This document shows positions 30,310 through 37,790 of a DNA stretch of 64,000 nucleotides, one piece after another. This DNA is from Amycolatopsis echigonensis. Its GTDB lineage: Bacteria > Actinomycetota > Actinomycetes > Mycobacteriales > Pseudonocardiaceae. Each line of letters starts with the position of its first letter. The first letter of the stretch is position 1. The stretch is from positions 124,001 to 188,000 of the forward strand of contig NZ_JACJHR010000005.1 of NCBI RefSeq assembly GCF_014174495.1, read 5' to 3'. The position numbers and the translations under genes were made by a program. The notes beneath the pieces were generated by a model. That model saw only the letters and a list, made by a program, of their open reading frames with translations. It was not told the origin of the DNA and searched no databases.

Positions 30310-30575
30310 TCCGTGAAGGACTCCTTGCGGGAATTAGAGTCCGTGAGGGGCCCCTTCACGGACAGCCGGGCGACAAAGCCTCGAATCGCCGGTATCCGCC
30401 GCGCCGTTCGGAAAGCCCTAAGGGAATCAGAGTCCGTGACGGTTCCCCTCACGGACGGCCAGCCCGCCAGGCCCGGAATCGCCGAGGTTTCGCGCTCGCG
30501 GCTCGGAAACCTGGGCCGGGAAGCCGTGAAGGGCCCTTTGCCGGAACAAGATTCCCGCAAGGGGCCCTTCACGGC
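30310..30575. repeat. GTGAAGGGGCCCCTTCAC palindromic repeat cluster
   Basis: The 716-base gap before the lanthipeptide synthetase (30269-30984) has no gene but several near-palindromic units of about 22 bp built on CCGTGAGGGGCCCCTTCACGG: 30310-30332, 30340-30362, 30433-30455, 30523-30544 and 30553-30575. The same unit recurs at 58034-58105. This is a dispersed intergenic repeat. The rest of the gap must contain the synthetase promoter; none was recognised. Confidence 0.7.
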
Positions 30576-30984
30576 ACGGTCACCGCGGCGCGAATCGACG
30601 GCTGGCCCGTTCTCCGGTAACGAATGCACCACATTCGCGACGCCCGCCCCGAACGGACCAGTCCGCACCGGGTGCGCCCCGGACGGCGCGCGGAAGCCGG
30701 CTCACCGGAACGGGTTGATGGCCTTCCGCCAATTTCTCCCGCTGTTTCCGCGCCGACCTGGGCGGCTGACCGCTAACCGTCTTCGTTACGCCCCGATCGG
30801 GTAGGGACAACTCACGCGCAGTCCGCATTTCCGCCGCCCGAACCCGCGTCCGTCACTCTGACGAGGAGCTTCGAACCCCCGGGTTGGCGGATTGGCCGGG
30901 GCACCTCCTCCGTGCGGGAATGGTGTCACCGTCCGACATCGAAGTCGCCCGGTTTTCCTCAGGGAAAAGGAAGGGTTCGTTTTC

Positions 30985-33522
30985 ATGGACGTCCGGTACG
31001 AGGCTTTTTGCTTCGCCGATCCGCTGTTCTTCGACGAACCGCGGGAAACCCCGGGCGCGGCCGGAGACCTGGCCGCGGGCCTGCCGGGCCCGGGACCGGA
31101 GTGGACGGTCGAAACCCGCGGGATCTGGCGTTCGCTGCGCCCGTCCGGCCGGAAACTTCCCGTCCAGGGCTGGAAAATCCATGTCTCCGCAGGTCTGGAC
31201 AACGCCGAGTCCGTACTGGCGCGGGTGCACCGGTACTGCGTGGAGCACCGGGTCGCGTACAAGCACCTGCGCTCCCGGACGATCCTGGTGAGCCGCAATT
31301 CGAAATACGCGCCGCGGGAAGGAAGCGGCAAGCTGATCACGATTTACCCAGGAGCCGCAGACGAGCTCGCCCGGATACTGCACGACCTTTCCGCCGAGCT
31401 GGAAGGCGAGCACGGTGCGTATATTCTGAGCGATCTCCGCTACCGCGAAGGCCCGCTTTACGTCCGATATGGCGGATTCGTCGAACAGTGGACAGAACAC
31501 GCCGGAACCCGGGTGCTGGCAATCCGCCATCCGGATGGAACTCTCGTGCCCGACCGGCGCGAACCGTCCTTTTCCGTGCCGGACTGGGCACCTATTCCGT
31601 CCTGTTTGTCCGACAGTCTCGCCGCGCGCAAGAACGGCGCCCGATTCCCGTACCGGGTGACCGGTTCCCTGCACTTTTCCAACGGCGGCGGCGTTTATCT
31701 GGCCGAACGAGGGGTCGACCAGAAGACCGTCGTGCTGAAGGAGGCCCGGCCGCACGCCGGGCTCGACCGGGACGGCGCCGACGCGGTCGCCCGGCTCAAC
31801 CACGAGCGCGAGGTGCTCGAACGGCTGGCGGACGTTCCGGGCGTCCCCCGGGTGTACGAGCAGTTCACCGTGTGGGAGCACCACTACCTGGCGATGGAGC
31901 ATCTGCCCGGCATCTCGCTGAGCAGCTGGCTCGCGCGGCATTACCCGCTCACCGGCGGCTCCCGCGCCGAAGGCGAGCTTGCGGCCTACCGCGACCGCGC
32001 TCTGGCCGTGCTGGCCCAAGTCGAACGCATCGTCGCGGACATCCACCGGCACGGCATCGTGTTCGGCGATCTGCACGGGAAGAACATCCTCGTGGACGAC
32101 CAGGACCGGGTGTCGCTGATCGACTTCGAGCTGGCCGTCGACGCCGAGTCCGGCGACCGTCCCGGGCTCGGCGCGCCTGGCTTCCGCGCGCCTGCCGACC
32201 GGCGCGGGTTCGAGATCGACGAGCACGCGCTCGCCGCGCTGCGGCTGTGGCTCTTCCTTCCGCTGGTGATGCTGCTGGAACTCGCGCCGGGCAAGCTGCG
32301 CGGGATCGCGGACTTCGCCCAGCAGCGGTTCGACCTGCCGGACGGATACGCCGACCGGGTGGTCTCCGTGCTCGCCTCGCGCACCACACCGCCCGCCGCG
32401 ACGCACACCGCGCTGGACGAGCCGCGGCCGGACTGGACGCTGGTGCGCAAGCAGATCGCGGAAGCCATCCTCGCGAGCGCCACGCCGGAGCGCACCGACC
32501 GGCTGTTCCCCGGCGACATCGAACAGTTCCGCTCCGGCGGCGCGGGATTCGGCGTCGGCGCCGCGGGCGTGCTGCACTCGCTGCACATCGCCGGAGCCGG
32601 CCGTTATCCGGAATACGAGCAGTGGCTGGTGGCTGCGGCGCGACGGCACCCGCCCACGCGGCCCGGCTTCTTCGACGGCAGCCACGGCATCGCCTACGTC
32701 CTGGAGGAATTCGGCTACTCGGCGGAAGCCGACGAGTTGCTCGCCGCGTCGCGGTCGCTGGCCGACCAGACCACCGACCACGGCCTGGAGAGCGGCCTCG
32801 CCGGGATCGGCCTCACCCGCCTGCACTTCGCGACGACCCGCGGCGACAACGAATTCGGCCGCCAAGCCCTCGACATCGCGGTCAAGCTCGCGACCGCTTT
32901 CGAGACCGCCGACCCGCCCGGACGCTTCGCCAGGGCCGGGCTGCTCAGCGGCTGGTCCGGACCGGCGTTGCTGTTCCTGCGCCTGTACGAACACACCGGG
33001 GAGCCGACCTGGCTCACCCTCGCCGACCGGGTCCTGGCCCGCGACCTGGAGGAATGCGCCCCAGCGGCCGACGGCTCGCTGCAGGTGCGGGACGGCACCC
33101 TACGGACGCTGCCGTACGCCGCGATCGGCAGCGCCGGAATCCTGCTGGTCGCCGAGCAGGTCGCCCGGCACCTCCCGGACTCGGCGACCGCCCGGAGCCT
33201 GCCCGGGTTGCGGGCGGCGTGCCGCGGAGAGTTCGTGATCCACCCCGGCCTGCTCTACGGCCGGTGCGGACTCGCCGCCGCCCTGTCCTTCGCCGACGAA
33301 CCGGACCGGGAAGCCATCGACCTGCATCTGTCCCGGCTGTCCTGGCACGGCGTCCCGTACCGCGGCGGGCTGGCCTTCCCCGGCAACCAGCTGCTTCGCC
33401 TGTCGACCGACGTCAGCACCGGCAGCGCGGGAGTCCTCCGCACGCTCGCCGCACTACTGGACGGCGCGGAACTGCTGCCCTTCCTGGGCTCCGCACCGTC
33501 CCCGCACACCTCCGGCCGATGA
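30985..33522 (+). CDS. Class III lanthipeptide synthetase LanKC (RamC/AmfT-like)
   Basis: An 845-residue three-domain enzyme that dehydrates Ser residues and cyclises the precursor. The N-terminal lyase-like domain (about 1-200) has VAYKHLRSRTILVSRNSKYA and KLITIYPG. The kinase domain (about 220-480) has VVLKEARP (K252), HGIVFGDLHGKNILV (D362, N367) and LIDFELA (D380). The C-terminal LanC-like domain (about 520-845) lacks the zinc-binding Cys-His motifs, as class III enzymes do, and ends with WHGVPYRGGLAFPGNQLLRL, typical of RamC. It lies 32 bp before the precursor gene. Confidence 0.92.
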   Translation: MDVRYEAFCFADPLFFDEPRETPGAAGDLAAGLPGPGPEWTVETRGIWRSLRPSGRKLPVQGWKIHVSAGLDNAESVLARVHRYCVEHRVAYKHLRSRTILVSRNSKYAPREGSGKLITIYPGAADELARILHDLSAELEGEHGAYILSDLRYREGPLYVRYGGFVEQWTEHAGTRVLAIRHPDGTLVPDRREPSFSVPDWAPIPSCLSDSLAARKNGARFPYRVTGSLHFSNGGGVYLAERGVDQKTVVLKEARPHAGLDRDGADAVARLNHEREVLERLADVPGVPRVYEQFTVWEHHYLAMEHLPGISLSSWLARHYPLTGGSRAEGELAAYRDRALAVLAQVERIVADIHRHGIVFGDLHGKNILVDDQDRVSLIDFELAVDAESGDRPGLGAPGFRAPADRRGFEIDEHALAALRLWLFLPLVMLLELAPGKLRGIADFAQQRFDLPDGYADRVVSVLASRTTPPAATHTALDEPRPDWTLVRKQIAEAILASATPERTDRLFPGDIEQFRSGGAGFGVGAAGVLHSLHIAGAGRYPEYEQWLVAAARRHPPTRPGFFDGSHGIAYVLEEFGYSAEADELLAASRSLADQTTDHGLESGLAGIGLTRLHFATTRGDNEFGRQALDIAVKLATAFETADPPGRFARAGLLSGWSGPALLFLRLYEHTGEPTWLTLADRVLARDLEECAPAADGSLQVRDGTLRTLPYAAIGSAGILLVAEQVARHLPDSATARSLPGLRAACRGEFVIHPGLLYGRCGLAAALSFADEPDREAIDLHLSRLSWHGVPYRGGLAFPGNQLLRLSTDVSTGSAGVLRTLAALLDGAELLPFLGSAPSPHTSGR

Positions 33523-33554
33523 GCGCCGGCGGACCCCGAGAGAAGGGAACACCC

Positions 33555-33689
33555 ATGGAACACGTCCTGGAACTGCAGGCGCTGGAGGCCCCGGAAGCCC
33601 TCGAAGGCCAGGGACTGGACCACCACGGCCACAGCCACTACAGCGCGTACTGCGGCGACAGCACGCTCAGCCTGCTTCTCTGCTACTGA
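33555..33689 (+). CDS. Class III lanthipeptide precursor (RamS/AmfS-like)
   Basis: A 44-residue precursor peptide. The leader carries the hydrophobic VLELQALEAPEAL box that class III synthetases recognise. The core has two labionin/lanthionine motifs joined by Gly-Asp: Ser27-x2-Ser30-x2-Cys33, then Ser36-x2-Ser39-x3-Cys43, ending in Tyr44. RamS and AmfS have the same two-ring plan and GDS linker, with SxxSxxxC in both rings; here the first ring is one residue shorter and preceded by His-rich residues (DHHGHSHY). An AGAAGGG site precedes the ATG. Confidence 0.9.
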   Translation: MEHVLELQALEAPEALEGQGLDHHGHSHYSAYCGDSTLSLLLCY

Positions 33690-33697
33690 CCGCGCGG

Positions 33698-33742
33698 GCG
33701 GGGCGGGAACGGCGCAGGCCAAGTGCGCCGTTCCCGCCCCGC
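33698..33742. terminator. 19-bp hairpin after the precursor gene
   Basis: A perfect 19-bp stem (33698-33716 with 33724-33742) with a 7-nt loop begins 9 bp after the precursor stop. No T tract follows. It may stop most transcripts or protect the precursor mRNA 3' end, giving more precursor than transporter. Confidence 0.75.
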
Positions 33743-33899
33743 TCATTCTGCCCCGGCGACCCGCGGTGGTCGCGCCGAGACGGACGGCTCCGGTGCTTCC
33801 GGGTTGAGATCGACGATCCGACGGCGGGGTTCGCCGGGAGTGCAGGCGTTCGCCACGCGAGGGGAACGCCGTCGTCCTGCAGACCTGGCACCCTCGACT

Positions 33900-34287
33900 C
33901 GTCGTGACGTCGCTGATCTCCGCCGACGCCCCGCATGGCGACCTCCGCGCGAAGGGACCGCCATGGCCAGCCACGCCGACTCCCGTTGGCCTGCGCCGCT
34001 CTTCTCGACCGTCCCTACTCGCCGCGACCGCCATGACCTCGCCGACCTCCCCCGCAGGACGACCACCACGCGAGAGGAGCGACCCGCCGACCACCCCTGC
34101 CTCACCGCAGTGCTCATGACCTCGCTGATCTCCGCCGGTGCCGCGCGTACCGACCACCACGCGAAGCGAGCGGCGTGACCGGATCCGCCGACCGCCCGTT
34201 CGCCATCGTCATGACCCCGCCGACCACCGCCAGTGCCCCGCACGGCGACCACCACGCGAGAGGAGCGCCATGGCCAGCCCCGCCGAC
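33900..34287 (+). repeat. Degenerate tandem copies of the transporter 5' end
   Basis: Four imperfect copies (33900-33980, 34020-34091, 34109-34192, 34203-34287) of a 72-85 bp unit occur in a row. Each begins like codons 22-33 of the following ABC gene (VVITSLITAG) and ends with its ribosome binding site, start codon and ASxAD codons. The last copy supplies the real start at 34270. Copy 1 keeps an ATGGCCAGC start at 33963. The stretch codes for no plausible protein. Confidence 0.65.
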
Positions 34288-35922
34288 CGACTGCTGACCA
34301 CGACCGCTCTCCTCGACCGCCCCCGTCTCGTCGCGGTCGTCATCACGTCACTGATCACCGCCGGTGCCGGACTGCTGCTGCCCGGCGCTCTCGCCGCGGC
34401 GACCGACGCGGTGCTCAGCGGGCGAAGCAGTACCGGCGCGGTGGTGTGGCTGCTTGTCGTAGGTGTCGCGGAGATCGCCGCGGACGCCGTCACCATGGTC
34501 CTTCCCGCCCGCCTGACCAGCAACGCGAGCGCTTGGCTCCGCCGCCGGATTACCGACCGGCTGCTCGCTCTCGGCACCGGCTCGCCGTTCGCCCCGGGCG
34601 ACGCGGTCAGCCGGGTGACCGGCGATTGCGCGGCCGCCGGCGGCATCGCCGCGGTCGTGGTGCAGCTGATCGCGACCGGGCTCATGTCCTCCGGCGCGGT
34701 CGTCCTGCTCGCGCTCTTGGACTGGCGGCTGGCGCTGGTCTTCCTCGGCAGCCTCCCCTTCGCGCTGCTGCTGGCCCGTTCCCACCTGCGCGGTACGGCC
34801 AAGGATGTTCTTTCCTACCAACGGGTTTCCGGTGAACTGTCCGCCCGACTGCTCGACGCGGTCGCCGGCCTCCGGACGATCGCCGCGTCCGGCACCGCCG
34901 ATGCCGAAGCCGCCCGGGTGCTGCGCCCGTTGCCGCGGCTGAACCTCGCCGGCCAAGGCATGTGGCGCACCCAAGCGCGGATGGTGTGGCGAGCAGGTCT
35001 CCTGCTCCCGACAGTGGAAATCCTCACCCTCGCCGCCGCCGGTTTCGGCGTGCTGGCCGGACGCTTGACCGCCGGGGACGTCCTCGCCGCCCTCGGCTAC
35101 GTCGCGCTCGGGCTCGGCCTGGTAACACAAATCCCGTTGCTCACCACGCTTTCCCGCATCCGCTCGGCCGCACACCGGATCACCGAAGTCCTCGACACCG
35201 AACCGCCCCCTCGCGGCGCGCTCGGACTGTTGCCCGGAAACGGCACCCTGGAACTCCGCGGCGTCACCGTGCACGGCGCACTCGCCGACATCGATCTCAC
35301 CATTCCCGGTGGCTGTTTCGCCGCGGTGGTAGGAAGTTCCGGGTCGGGAAAGTCCACTGTGGTCTCATTGCTGGCAGGTCTCCGTCGCCCCGACGCCGGT
35401 CACGTCCTGCTGGACGGCCGCGACCTCGCTGTACTGCGTCCTGAGGAACTTCGGGCCGTTATCGGCTACGCCCCCGCCGAGCCCGCGCTACTTGGCGACA
35501 CCGTCGCGGATGCTGTCGCTTACGGTTCCTGGGCCAGCGTTCCGGCCGTCGATGCTGCCTGCCGGACCGCGCGGATCCACGACGTCCTCGTCCGGTTGCC
35601 GCAGGGTTATGACACTCCCCTCGCCGAAACTCCGTTGTCCGGCGGGGAACGCGCCCGGGTCGGCCTCGCTCGTGCGCTCGCGAGAAACCCGCGAGTGCTC
35701 CTGCTCGACGACGCCACCGCCAGCCTCGACACGATCACCGAACGCGCCGTGACAGCTGAACTGGGCCGCCGGACTCGGGTAGTCGTCACGCACCGAGCCG
35801 CGATGGCCGCGCGGGCGGACGTGGTGGTGTGGCTGGCGGCGGGACAGGTCCTGGCGGTCGGGCCGCATGCGCGCTTATGGCAGCTGCCCGGGTATCGCGC
35901 GGTGTTCACGGAGGAAACGTGA
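34270..35922 (+). CDS. ABC exporter half-transporter, lanthipeptide (RamA/AmfB-like)
   Basis: A 550-residue fusion of a six-helix membrane domain (about 10-300) and a nucleotide-binding domain: Walker A GSSGSGKST (355-363), signature LSGGER (about 456), Walker B LLLDDATASLD and H-loop VTHRA. In Walker B the catalytic Glu is replaced by Asp, so this half probably has weak ATPase. It should pair with the next gene as a heterodimeric exporter for the lanthipeptide. A GAGAGGAG site precedes the ATG. Confidence 0.88.
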   Translation: MASPADRLLTTTALLDRPRLVAVVITSLITAGAGLLLPGALAAATDAVLSGRSSTGAVVWLLVVGVAEIAADAVTMVLPARLTSNASAWLRRRITDRLLALGTGSPFAPGDAVSRVTGDCAAAGGIAAVVVQLIATGLMSSGAVVLLALLDWRLALVFLGSLPFALLLARSHLRGTAKDVLSYQRVSGELSARLLDAVAGLRTIAASGTADAEAARVLRPLPRLNLAGQGMWRTQARMVWRAGLLLPTVEILTLAAAGFGVLAGRLTAGDVLAALGYVALGLGLVTQIPLLTTLSRIRSAAHRITEVLDTEPPPRGALGLLPGNGTLELRGVTVHGALADIDLTIPGGCFAAVVGSSGSGKSTVVSLLAGLRRPDAGHVLLDGRDLAVLRPEELRAVIGYAPAEPALLGDTVADAVAYGSWASVPAVDAACRTARIHDVLVRLPQGYDTPLAETPLSGGERARVGLARALARNPRVLLLDDATASLDTITERAVTAELGRRTRVVVTHRAAMAARADVVVWLAAGQVLAVGPHARLWQLPGYRAVFTEET

Positions 35923-35986
35923 ACGCAGCACAGCGAACGACAGAACAATTCCGCCCGCACGAGCGTGCCGTGCGTACGGAGCGGAC

Positions 35987-37708
35987 ATGAGCGTCGGCCG
36001 TCTCTACTGGAACGCCCTCGCCGGGCAATGGCGCGGCGGGTTGGTCCTCCTTGCCTGCTCCGTCCTCGAAGGACTGCCCCCATTCTTCTCCGGACGGCTC
36101 GTCGAACTGGCCGTCAACAGCGGGTTCGCCGCCGGCAAGCCCGGTGTCGGCCTCAGCTGGCTCGGGGTGTTCGGCCTCGCCGCTCTCGCCGGCGCGTTCG
36201 GTTCCCGGCTCGTGTGGCGGCAGCTGGGCAAGGTCGTCGAGCCATTGCGCGACGCGCTGGTGACCGCCGTCGTGCGCGGGGTGCTGCACGATCCCGCGCC
36301 GCCGCGAAGCGGGCCGGACGCTCGCGGCGTCGCGCGGATCACCCAGCACGTCGAGGTCGTGCGCGACGCCACCGGCGGGCTTCTGGTGCAGGCCCGCGGC
36401 ATGGTCGTCACGACCGCGGCGGCGGTCGCCGGACTCGTGACCGTCGCAGGGTCGCTGGCGTTGCCGGTCGTAGTCCCCGTGCTGGTCGCGCTGGCCGGAT
36501 TCGCCGCACTGCTGCCGTCCCTCGCCCGGGGGCAACGCGCGCTCACGCTCGCCGACGAGGGCACCGCGGCGACCACTGGTTCGATCTTCGCCGGGATGCG
36601 GGACGTCGTCGCCTGCGGAGCCGAACCGGTCGCCGCGCTGACCGCCGACCACGCGATGGACCGTCAAGCCGCGGCTGCGGTGCGCGTCGCCAGGTCGGCG
36701 GCGCTGCGGTCAGTGATCGTGGCGCTCGGCGGGTTCGTCCCGCTGGTGCTCGCGCTCGCCCTCGCGCCGTCGATGGTCGCGCGCGGCGAACTGACCGCCG
36801 GGGCCGCGCTGGGCGCGCTCGTCTACCTGGCCACCACCCTGCAACCGGCGCTGCGCGGACTCGCCGCCACCGCGTCCACGGTCGTTCTCCGGTTGCTCGT
36901 CGCGCTGCGCCGGCTCGCCGAAACCACTGCCCCGCCCGAACGTCGCCCGGCGACCGAAAGCCCCGCCGGACTTGGCCTCACCGTCCGCGGCCTGACGTTC
37001 CGCTGGGGCGCGGCACCGGAACCGGTAGTGCGCGGCTTGAATCTGGATCTGCGCCCGGGCGAACACCTCGCCGTGGTCGGCCCGAGCGGCATCGGGAAAT
37101 CGACCCTCGCCGGTCTGCTCACCGGTCTTCTGGCGCCGCAGCACGGCGAAGTCCGGCTGGGCGGCGTACGAGTCGGCCAGCTGGCCGACCGGCCCCGGCA
37201 CTTGGTGCTGGTCCCGCAACAGGCGTACATCTTCGCCGGAACCCTGCGCGAAAACCTTTCCCTGTTCCACCCCGAAGCCTCCGACCGCCGCCTCGTCGCA
37301 GCCGCCGAAGCCGTCGGCGCCGCCCCGCTGCTGGCCCGCCTCGGCGGCCTGGACGCCGAACTCGGCCACGGCGCGGACGGCCTTTCCGCCGGGGAAGCCC
37401 AGCTGCTGGCGCTGGCGAGAGCCTATGCCGCGCCCGCCGGAGTCGTCGTCCTGGACGAGGCAACGTCCACTTTGGACCCAGCAGCGGAGGTCCACGCGGA
37501 ACGCGCCTTCGCCGCCCGAGGAGGCACCCTGGTGGTCATCGCGCATCGGCTGTCGTCCGCGGTCCGGGCGCACCGAGTGCTGCTGATGGACGGGCGGGAA
37601 ACGCTGCTGGGTAGCCACGACGAACTTCTCGCCGCCGCGCCGCGGTATGCCGAGATGATGCGGGCTTGGCTGCCGGAGCAACGGAAATCGCAGCTTGAGG
37701 CCAGTTGA
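35987..37708 (+). CDS. ABC exporter half-transporter, lanthipeptide (RamB/AmfA-like)
   Basis: A 573-residue membrane/ATPase fusion: membrane helices to about residue 310, Walker A GPSGIGKST (365-373), signature LSAGEAQ (466-472; Ala replaces the usual Gly), Walker B VVVLDEATSTLD with the catalytic Glu present, and H-loop IAHRLSS. With its partner the active sites are complementary: each subunit has one non-standard element. It follows the first half-transporter by 64 bp with its own GGAG site. Confidence 0.88.
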   Translation: MSVGRLYWNALAGQWRGGLVLLACSVLEGLPPFFSGRLVELAVNSGFAAGKPGVGLSWLGVFGLAALAGAFGSRLVWRQLGKVVEPLRDALVTAVVRGVLHDPAPPRSGPDARGVARITQHVEVVRDATGGLLVQARGMVVTTAAAVAGLVTVAGSLALPVVVPVLVALAGFAALLPSLARGQRALTLADEGTAATTGSIFAGMRDVVACGAEPVAALTADHAMDRQAAAAVRVARSAALRSVIVALGGFVPLVLALALAPSMVARGELTAGAALGALVYLATTLQPALRGLAATASTVVLRLLVALRRLAETTAPPERRPATESPAGLGLTVRGLTFRWGAAPEPVVRGLNLDLRPGEHLAVVGPSGIGKSTLAGLLTGLLAPQHGEVRLGGVRVGQLADRPRHLVLVPQQAYIFAGTLRENLSLFHPEASDRRLVAAAEAVGAAPLLARLGGLDAELGHGADGLSAGEAQLLALARAYAAPAGVVVLDEATSTLDPAAEVHAERAFAARGGTLVVIAHRLSSAVRAHRVLLMDGRETLLGSHDELLAAAPRYAEMMRAWLPEQRKSQLEAS

Positions 37709-37790
37709 ACGGGGTTCGAGTCCCTTCGCACCATGAGAGGACGCGCTCGGCGTTGGCCGGATAGACGAGGTCCTTTCCGCGGACACCCGC

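Follow-up and report, generated by a model that had tools for sequence, protein, structure and literature searches.

A SapB/AmfS-type class III lanthipeptide cluster with a contracted first ring in Amycolatopsis, and LanKC relatives stripped of catalytic residues

Does a compact locus of Amycolatopsis echigonensis encode a lanthipeptide of the SapB type, and is the short first ring of that peptide peculiar to it? The locus lies at positions 30985 to 37708 of a stretch of 64,000 nucleotides (contig NZ_JACJHR010000005.1 of assembly GCF_014174495.1, positions 124,001 to 188,000; hereafter the window) in the 9.66-Mb genome of this species. A first-pass annotation made from the DNA letters had placed there a class III lanthipeptide synthetase (LanKC), a 44-residue precursor and two ATP-binding cassette (ABC) half-transporters in a row, and had called the product RamS/SapB-like with an unusual first ring. 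Coordinates and profile matches agree with this gene order and support the family assignment. With high probability the locus is the version of the SapB/AmfS-type class III lanthipeptide cluster that belongs to Amycolatopsis, and its product would act in aerial growth. The cluster is real and ordinary for its genus, and its first ring is a two-residue contraction on one branch (SNLSLLASC to SHYSAYC). Less ordinary are LanKC proteins of the same genus that have been stripped of catalytic residues.

Identity of the cluster and of its synthetase

All genes of the cluster lie on the plus strand. LanKC (30985..33522, ATG at 30985, 845 amino acids) comprises lyase, kinase and metal-independent cyclase domains, and is followed by the 44-residue precursor LanA (33555..33689; MEHVLELQALEAPEALEGQGLDHHGHSHYSAYCGDSTLSLLLCY), which carries the motif LELQ in its leader and the core SHYSAYC-GD-STLSLLLC-Y. 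Next come the half-transporters LanT1 (34270..35922) and LanT2 (about 35987..37708, the start being an internal ATG chosen within an open reading frame (ORF) that begins at 35867), both with ABC_membrane and ABC_tran domains; a RamA/RamB-like role is suggested for LanT1. The best precursor match was to NF038159 lanthi_III_b (57.9 bits, cut-off 30), a family of which we know no product, and the precursor also scored above the cut-offs of NF033212 SapB_AmfS (47.3 bits against 25) and Pfam RamS (45.7 bits against 24.3). LanKC reached 1016.5 bits with NF038151 (cut-off 575), a RamC_N match of 256 bits and matches to Pkinase and LANC_like. With three curated models matched above cut-off by the precursor and NF038151 by LanKC, the cluster is not a chance assembly of ORFs. 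The window LanKC is 91-92% identical to those of A. circi, A. dendrobii, A. orientalis DSM 43388, A. rubida and A. nivea.

The order of LanKC, small precursor and two half-transporters is that of the SapB/RamS (ramCSAB) and AmfS clusters of Streptomyces, and the LxLQ leader, the two Ser/Ser/Cys motifs and the profile scores add to the likeness. SapB and AmfS have a three-residue spacing in both rings, whereas ring 1 of the window has two residues in that place, is preceded by a His-rich linker and belongs to a cluster that no LuxR-type ramR adjoins. Because the spacing of three was not found in both rings, we filed the cluster as a SapB/AmfS variant.

In an alignment to ThurKC, for which the reference catalytic residues are named in PMC10604976, the window LanKC keeps all 13 lyase and kinase residues tested (K64, H66, K93, K107, K116, D150, R161, R192, K252, E274, D362, N367 and D380), as do all 63 precursor-bearing LanKCs in our tree, from which the split genes of two genomes (G030 and G055) were left out. 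The cyclase has no zinc ligands, the positions S726, F770 and D771 of ThurKC (PMC10604976) corresponding to A713, L757 and Y758 as read by hand from the alignment with an inferred chain offset. The predicted structure of LanKC (mean predicted local distance difference test, pLDDT, 83.4) matches ThurKC (8sao/8sam) at a template-modelling (TM) score of about 0.8. The 11 LanKCs that go with a contracted ring (the x2 clade, see below) have lost 0 of 64 otherwise invariant residues in the lyase, 1 of 70 in the kinase and 3 of 96 in the cyclase. As their catalytic residues are all kept, a normal class III enzyme here meets a shortened ring.

Ring spacing in the genus and beyond

Translation of 33555-33689 gave exactly the spacing that had been claimed, Ser27-x2-Ser30-x2-Cys33 for ring 1 and Ser36-x2-Ser39-x3-Cys43 for ring 2, and the His-rich region ahead of ring 1 is equally real (HHGHSH). 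We searched 80 Amycolatopsis genomes and found a LanKC orthologue in 77 (it is missing from G005, G020 and G036) and, with a profile of 24 precursors, a precursor in 65. Cores adjoining LanKC were read in all 77 by a pattern that itself demands the Ser/Ser/Cys residues of the rings; 54 had the spacing 4/3 (S-x2-S-x4-C, then x3 in the second ring), 11 including the window had 2/3 (x2 in the first ring, x3 in the second), and 12 had none. Asymmetric spacing is thus the norm of the genus, and the first ring is unusual only as a minority form, carried by 11 of 65 precursors; this sharing also shows that the x2 ring did not arise from misreading or misassembly of the sequence. The commoner precursors (SNLSLLASC-xx-STISLLTCH) have the orthologous LanKC, the transporters and an intergenic hairpin in common with the window, and differ in a first ring that is two residues longer and hydrophobic. 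On the Kyte-Doolittle scale ring 1 of the window averaged -0.44, against 1.09 for the x4 ring found most often in Amycolatopsis; ring 2 averaged 1.92.

Nor is an x2 ring confined to the genus. The class III motif is printed in PMC8960859 as S-x2-S-x2-5-C, a range that includes x2, and among 41 loci outside the genus (of 65 listed places) an x2 first ring was read in two, each from a different genus: SRASKGC (L117) and SHNSGWC (L147), the latter also His-rich. The 44 loci read in this comparison further included two Amycolatopsis loci from the same list and one found with the precursor profile. Together with the 10 other Amycolatopsis species, these two loci rule out that the ring is unique.

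In the 24 aligned precursors, a selection from the loci read, leader residues M1, V4, L5, L7 and Q8 and core residues S27, S30, C33, S36, S39 and C43 were invariant. Between these fixed points the 11 x2 cores behave differently in their two rings: ring 2 is either STLSLLLC or SGLSLLLC, a change confined to the second residue, whereas ring 1 appears as SHYSAYC, SHYSAWC, SHCSTDC, SHFSLHC, SHLSIDC or SHLSLHC. In a search of 390 genomes of the taxonomic family with NF038159, the 11 x2 genomes were the 11 top matches. Their LanKCs were monophyletic in FastTree analyses of the full protein (support 0.986), the kinase (0.995) and the cyclase (0.936), and in an IQ-TREE cyclase tree (support 100; the IQ-TREE sample comprised 38 of the 63 precursor-bearing LanKCs). 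The genus offers a natural series of rings (4/3, 2/3, lost) in which ring-size effects in SapB-type morphogens could be studied with an otherwise orthologous enzyme.

Two of the x4 precursors counted among the 54 seem to be broken, with a frameshift between leader and core in G010 (L019) and a lost ATG in G055 (L076); an assembly error is possible in both. A distant class III LanKC (44-46% identity) was also seen in three x2 genomes (G048, locus L093; G012, contig C271; G073, contig C1), each adjoining a weak precursor match, of which the one in G048 ends in STLTVLGCASHTPSNVSLLLCH.

Proposed working and function of the peptide

LanKC would bind the LxLQ leader helix, phosphorylate and then eliminate Ser27, Ser30, Ser36 and Ser39, and close two rings on the cysteines. 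The leader would then be cut off by an unlinked protease, and the peptide exported by the two half-ABC proteins. We recognised no protease gene in the cluster, and PMC8960859 reports the same of most class III clusters that have been characterised. In 10 of the 25 loci compared, LanKC has in its vicinity a gene for a trypsin-like protease with a signal-like start, named by eye; at L059 and L082 this gene lies upstream of LanKC, and its product is a possible leader protease.

The product would be a head-and-tail amphiphile, with a small polar ring 1 of His and aromatic residues and a hydrophobic ring 2. In aerial growth it might work on the surface of the hyphae or serve as a signal of self-recognition. 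For a peptide that has lost four waters, the calculated monoisotopic mass [M] is 2676.16 if it begins at Gly20, 2619.14 at Leu21, 2506.06 at Asp22 and 1922.83 at Ser27. A role as a surfactant or signal linked to aerial growth is plausible from family membership. Durhapeptin and rochsin A of Streptomyces, described in PMC13380574 as carrying two labionins, serve as the functional model; SapB-type relatives are reported there to induce aerial hyphae, one of them becoming inactive once a hydrophobic residue was replaced.

Several observations pull the other way. The polar ring 1 suits a surfactant less well than the ring that is the norm of the genus, and it differs from that of every morphogen with a tested function known to us, SapB and AmfS being x3/x3. 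Durhapeptin, with two tandem SxxSxxxC motifs, is given as x3/x3 too, compared with 2/3 in the window (PMC13380574). Support for the x2 clade was weaker with the lyase alone (0.552, FastTree) and reached an ultrafast bootstrap (UFboot) of 77 in the full IQ-TREE analysis when a dead LanKC paralogue, described below, was included. Moreover, the peptide is dispensable to the genus, since 15 of 80 species show no precursor.

The peptide could instead be a signal, a kin marker or an antimicrobial and not a surface-active morphogen, its fast-changing ring 1 being the recognition part. The drift of ring 1 beside a nearly fixed ring 2 in the 11 x2 cores fits this proposal, as does the kin recognition proposed for durhapeptin (PMC13380574). 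We regard it as rather unlikely: family membership, gene order and a hydrophobic ring 2 all mark the cluster as SapB-type, and a scan of 14 proteins from the cluster and its surroundings revealed no recognisable immunity gene.

It is similarly doubtful that ring 1 is too short for a labionin and ends up as a plain lanthionine, a disulfide or an open chain, which would leave at most one labionin in the product. Ring 1 lies two residues below the genus norm, and class III products comprise lanthionine-only, labionin and mixed peptides according to PMC13380574. Against this, S27, S30 and C33 are kept in all 24 aligned precursors, the Ser/Ser/Cys set persists in the 11 x2 cores despite the drift of ring 1 (the pattern by which the cores were read demands it), and x2 falls within the printed motif range (PMC8960859).

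A His-rich, metal-binding lanthipeptide is very improbable: although HHGHSH precedes ring 1 and noursin is a His-containing class III lanthipeptide that binds copper, linkers rich in Gly and His are common in the genus, in x4-ring precursors too, and noursin is described as having a single Cys, one labionin, a histidinobutyrine crosslink made by a separate LanKC subgroup (LanKC_Hbt) and an S9 peptidase in its cluster (PMC10206099), whereas the window core has two Cys in two SapB-like motifs.

LanKC relatives stripped of catalytic residues

A second LanKC-like gene is present in the genome of A. echigonensis, outside the window (contig C13, 47482-49926; 7001-9445 of locus L082). Ten genomes of the genus carry this paralogue: nine of the 11 with an x2 ring, and G020, from which the orthologous cluster is missing. 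We saw no precursor with a leader in the neighbourhood of the paralogue, and neither of the two ABC proteins was matched within 12-16 kb around 9 of the 10 copies. In the eight copies tested, the lyase residues K64, H66, K93, K107, K116 and D150 as well as K252, E274, D362 and the DFE motif of the kinase were all replaced or deleted; visual inspection of a ninth copy (G012) gave the same picture, and all copies but the tenth (G035), which is frameshifted, have open frames. The paralogue gave no Pfam kinase match, yet it scored 642.6 bits against the LanKC cut-off of 575. Counts of LanKC can therefore overstate the number of lanthipeptide clusters, because the curated name 'class III lanthionine synthetase' can be given to a protein in which no kinase domain is recognisable.

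The paralogue adjoins a pair of divergent genes, judged by eye to encode membrane proteins, which is found flanking LanKC in 18 of the 25 loci compared, and it sits at the ancestral locus in the five copies for which gene order was compared. The active cluster is without this divergent pair in the window and in five other compared loci of a 9-genome subclade, and with it in G021 and G073. As the pair stays with the paralogue, the active cluster was probably moved or copied and the copy at the old site stripped. The simplest form of this history predicts that the paralogue is sister to the moved subclade, but in our trees it was sister to the whole x2 clade, a placement that is uncertain given its long branch.

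A further group comprises twelve species, A. rifamycinica included, in which LanKC has lost lyase residues and no precursor was found (0/12; loci L059, L060, L063, L065, L066, L070-L075 and L077). ABC genes were absent from all twelve within 14.5 kb around LanKC, compared with a first ABC gene in 33 and a second in 34 of 34 precursor-bearing loci of similar length. All six of the twelve for which gene order was compared occupy the ancestral site. Six of the twelve reappear in a set of 56 named loci (L189, L190, L191, L203, L219 and L231), where they belong to A. rifamycinica, A. bullii, A. kentuckyensis and three further strains; no other locus of that set shows several catalytic losses. K116 is lost in 12, D150 in 11 and K64 in 10 of the twelve, all of which keep K107, R161 and E274; D362 is present in seven and D380 in eight. 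From these losses the lyase looks dead, and from the partial retention of D362 and D380 the kinase appears to be eroding but not gone. The predicted structure of the A. rifamycinica copy (pLDDT 83.1) still resembles ThurKC (TM about 0.78). A single ancient origin of both stripped groups was rejected, as trees place the paralogue with the x2 clade and the twelve with L022 and L027.

Losses were unevenly spread over the domains. We took as invariant those residues that 98% or more of the precursor-bearing and outgroup enzymes share. The paralogue has lost 23 of 62 such residues in the lyase, 32 of 67 in the kinase and 5 of 92 in the cyclase, and the twelve-species group has lost 8, 6 and 0, respectively (Fisher test, lyase plus kinase against cyclase: p = 9e-11 and 5e-4). 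Three of the five cyclase losses of the paralogue (L709, P710 and Y711, mapped by hand) fall at the end of the peptide-guiding loop described for ThurKC (PMC10604976). Median pairwise ratios of non-synonymous to synonymous substitution (dN/dS) in the cyclase were 0.175 for the paralogue and 0.164 for the twelve, compared with 0.172 and 0.189 in active relatives; lyase and kinase medians were 0.27-0.37 in the stripped groups against 0.17-0.28 in active relatives. By these values all domains are still constrained, the cyclase as in working enzymes.

A LanKC freed from lanthipeptide making could persist as a protein that no longer dehydrates and is centred on its cyclase domain, with a job independent of any precursor; judged from sequence, we give this proposal an even chance. 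The job might be, for example, thiol addition to dehydrated proteins, as in eukaryotic LanC-like proteins, or scaffolding. Two points weigh against a new function: the pairs compared for dN/dS have branches in common, and a gene that began to decay only recently may still show a low ratio. If the stripped LanKCs are functional, the cyclase domain of a lanthipeptide synthetase needs neither a dehydratase nor a substrate encoded beside it in order to be useful. These proteins are the part of this work most worth laboratory study. Among open PMC papers we found none that linked LanKC to a pseudokinase and none that brought together class III lanthipeptides, SapB and Amycolatopsis; one review matched LanKC together with Amycolatopsis, and the matches listed for orphan or catalytically inactive class III synthetases contained none like the stripped LanKCs.

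Regulation and intergenic elements

Scanning of 10 neighbouring ORFs confirmed that no LuxR-type gene adjoins the cluster; a LysR gene lies upstream and a TetR gene downstream. This absence is expected, since ramR is reported from streptomycetes only (PMC4255298). Just past lanT2, at 37713-37733, stands a string that resembles a tRNA 3' end (GGTTCGAGTCCCTTCGCACCA). ARAGORN found no tRNA gene within the window, a shorter pattern gave no tRNA-like copy in 15 loci of relatives, and an integration site was rejected because the string has no second genomic copy at up to 2 mismatches.

The stretch from lanA to lanT1 holds two elements that the first-pass annotation had missed. The first is a perfect hairpin of 19 bp with the 7-nt loop GGCCAAG (33698..33742, not assigned to a strand), located between lanA and lanT. 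Its 20-mer GGCRCAGGMCAAGTGCGCCG was found in 63 of the 80 genus genomes, once in each (G035 gave two contig-end matches); in G001 and G011 a variant occurs in which a changed stem base restores the pair. When this variant was allowed, the hairpin lay 17-218 nt past the lanA stop in all 65 precursor loci. The 20-mer was not found in any of the 15 precursor-less genomes, and the reversed pattern gave no genome. Among 53 distinct hairpins, including one from Saccharopolyspora and one from Actinokineospora, several stem positions vary with pairing kept, the loop is GGCCAAG in 49 and an A-C mismatch of the inner stem occurs in 37. Searches for the pattern found nothing in the Lentzea locus or in several other named loci, and a comparison of 30500-34400 with Rfam yielded no family, even with E values of up to 1 allowed. 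Because the hairpin shows no clear T-run, our guess is that it may be an attenuator or a processing element.

The second element consists of degenerate tandem copies of the 5' end of lanT1 (33876..34269, plus strand), immediately upstream of its start. A second precursor had been considered for the 580-bp gap before lanT and was rejected, none of its 11 ORFs having an LxLQ-type leader by eye. The gap between lanKC and lanT1 ranges from 338 to 833 bp across the moved subclade. Local scores of the copies were 71, 52, 44, 44 and 34, whereas 40 shuffles reached 28 at most, and copies scoring above the shuffles were clear in the window and G048 and weak in G045.

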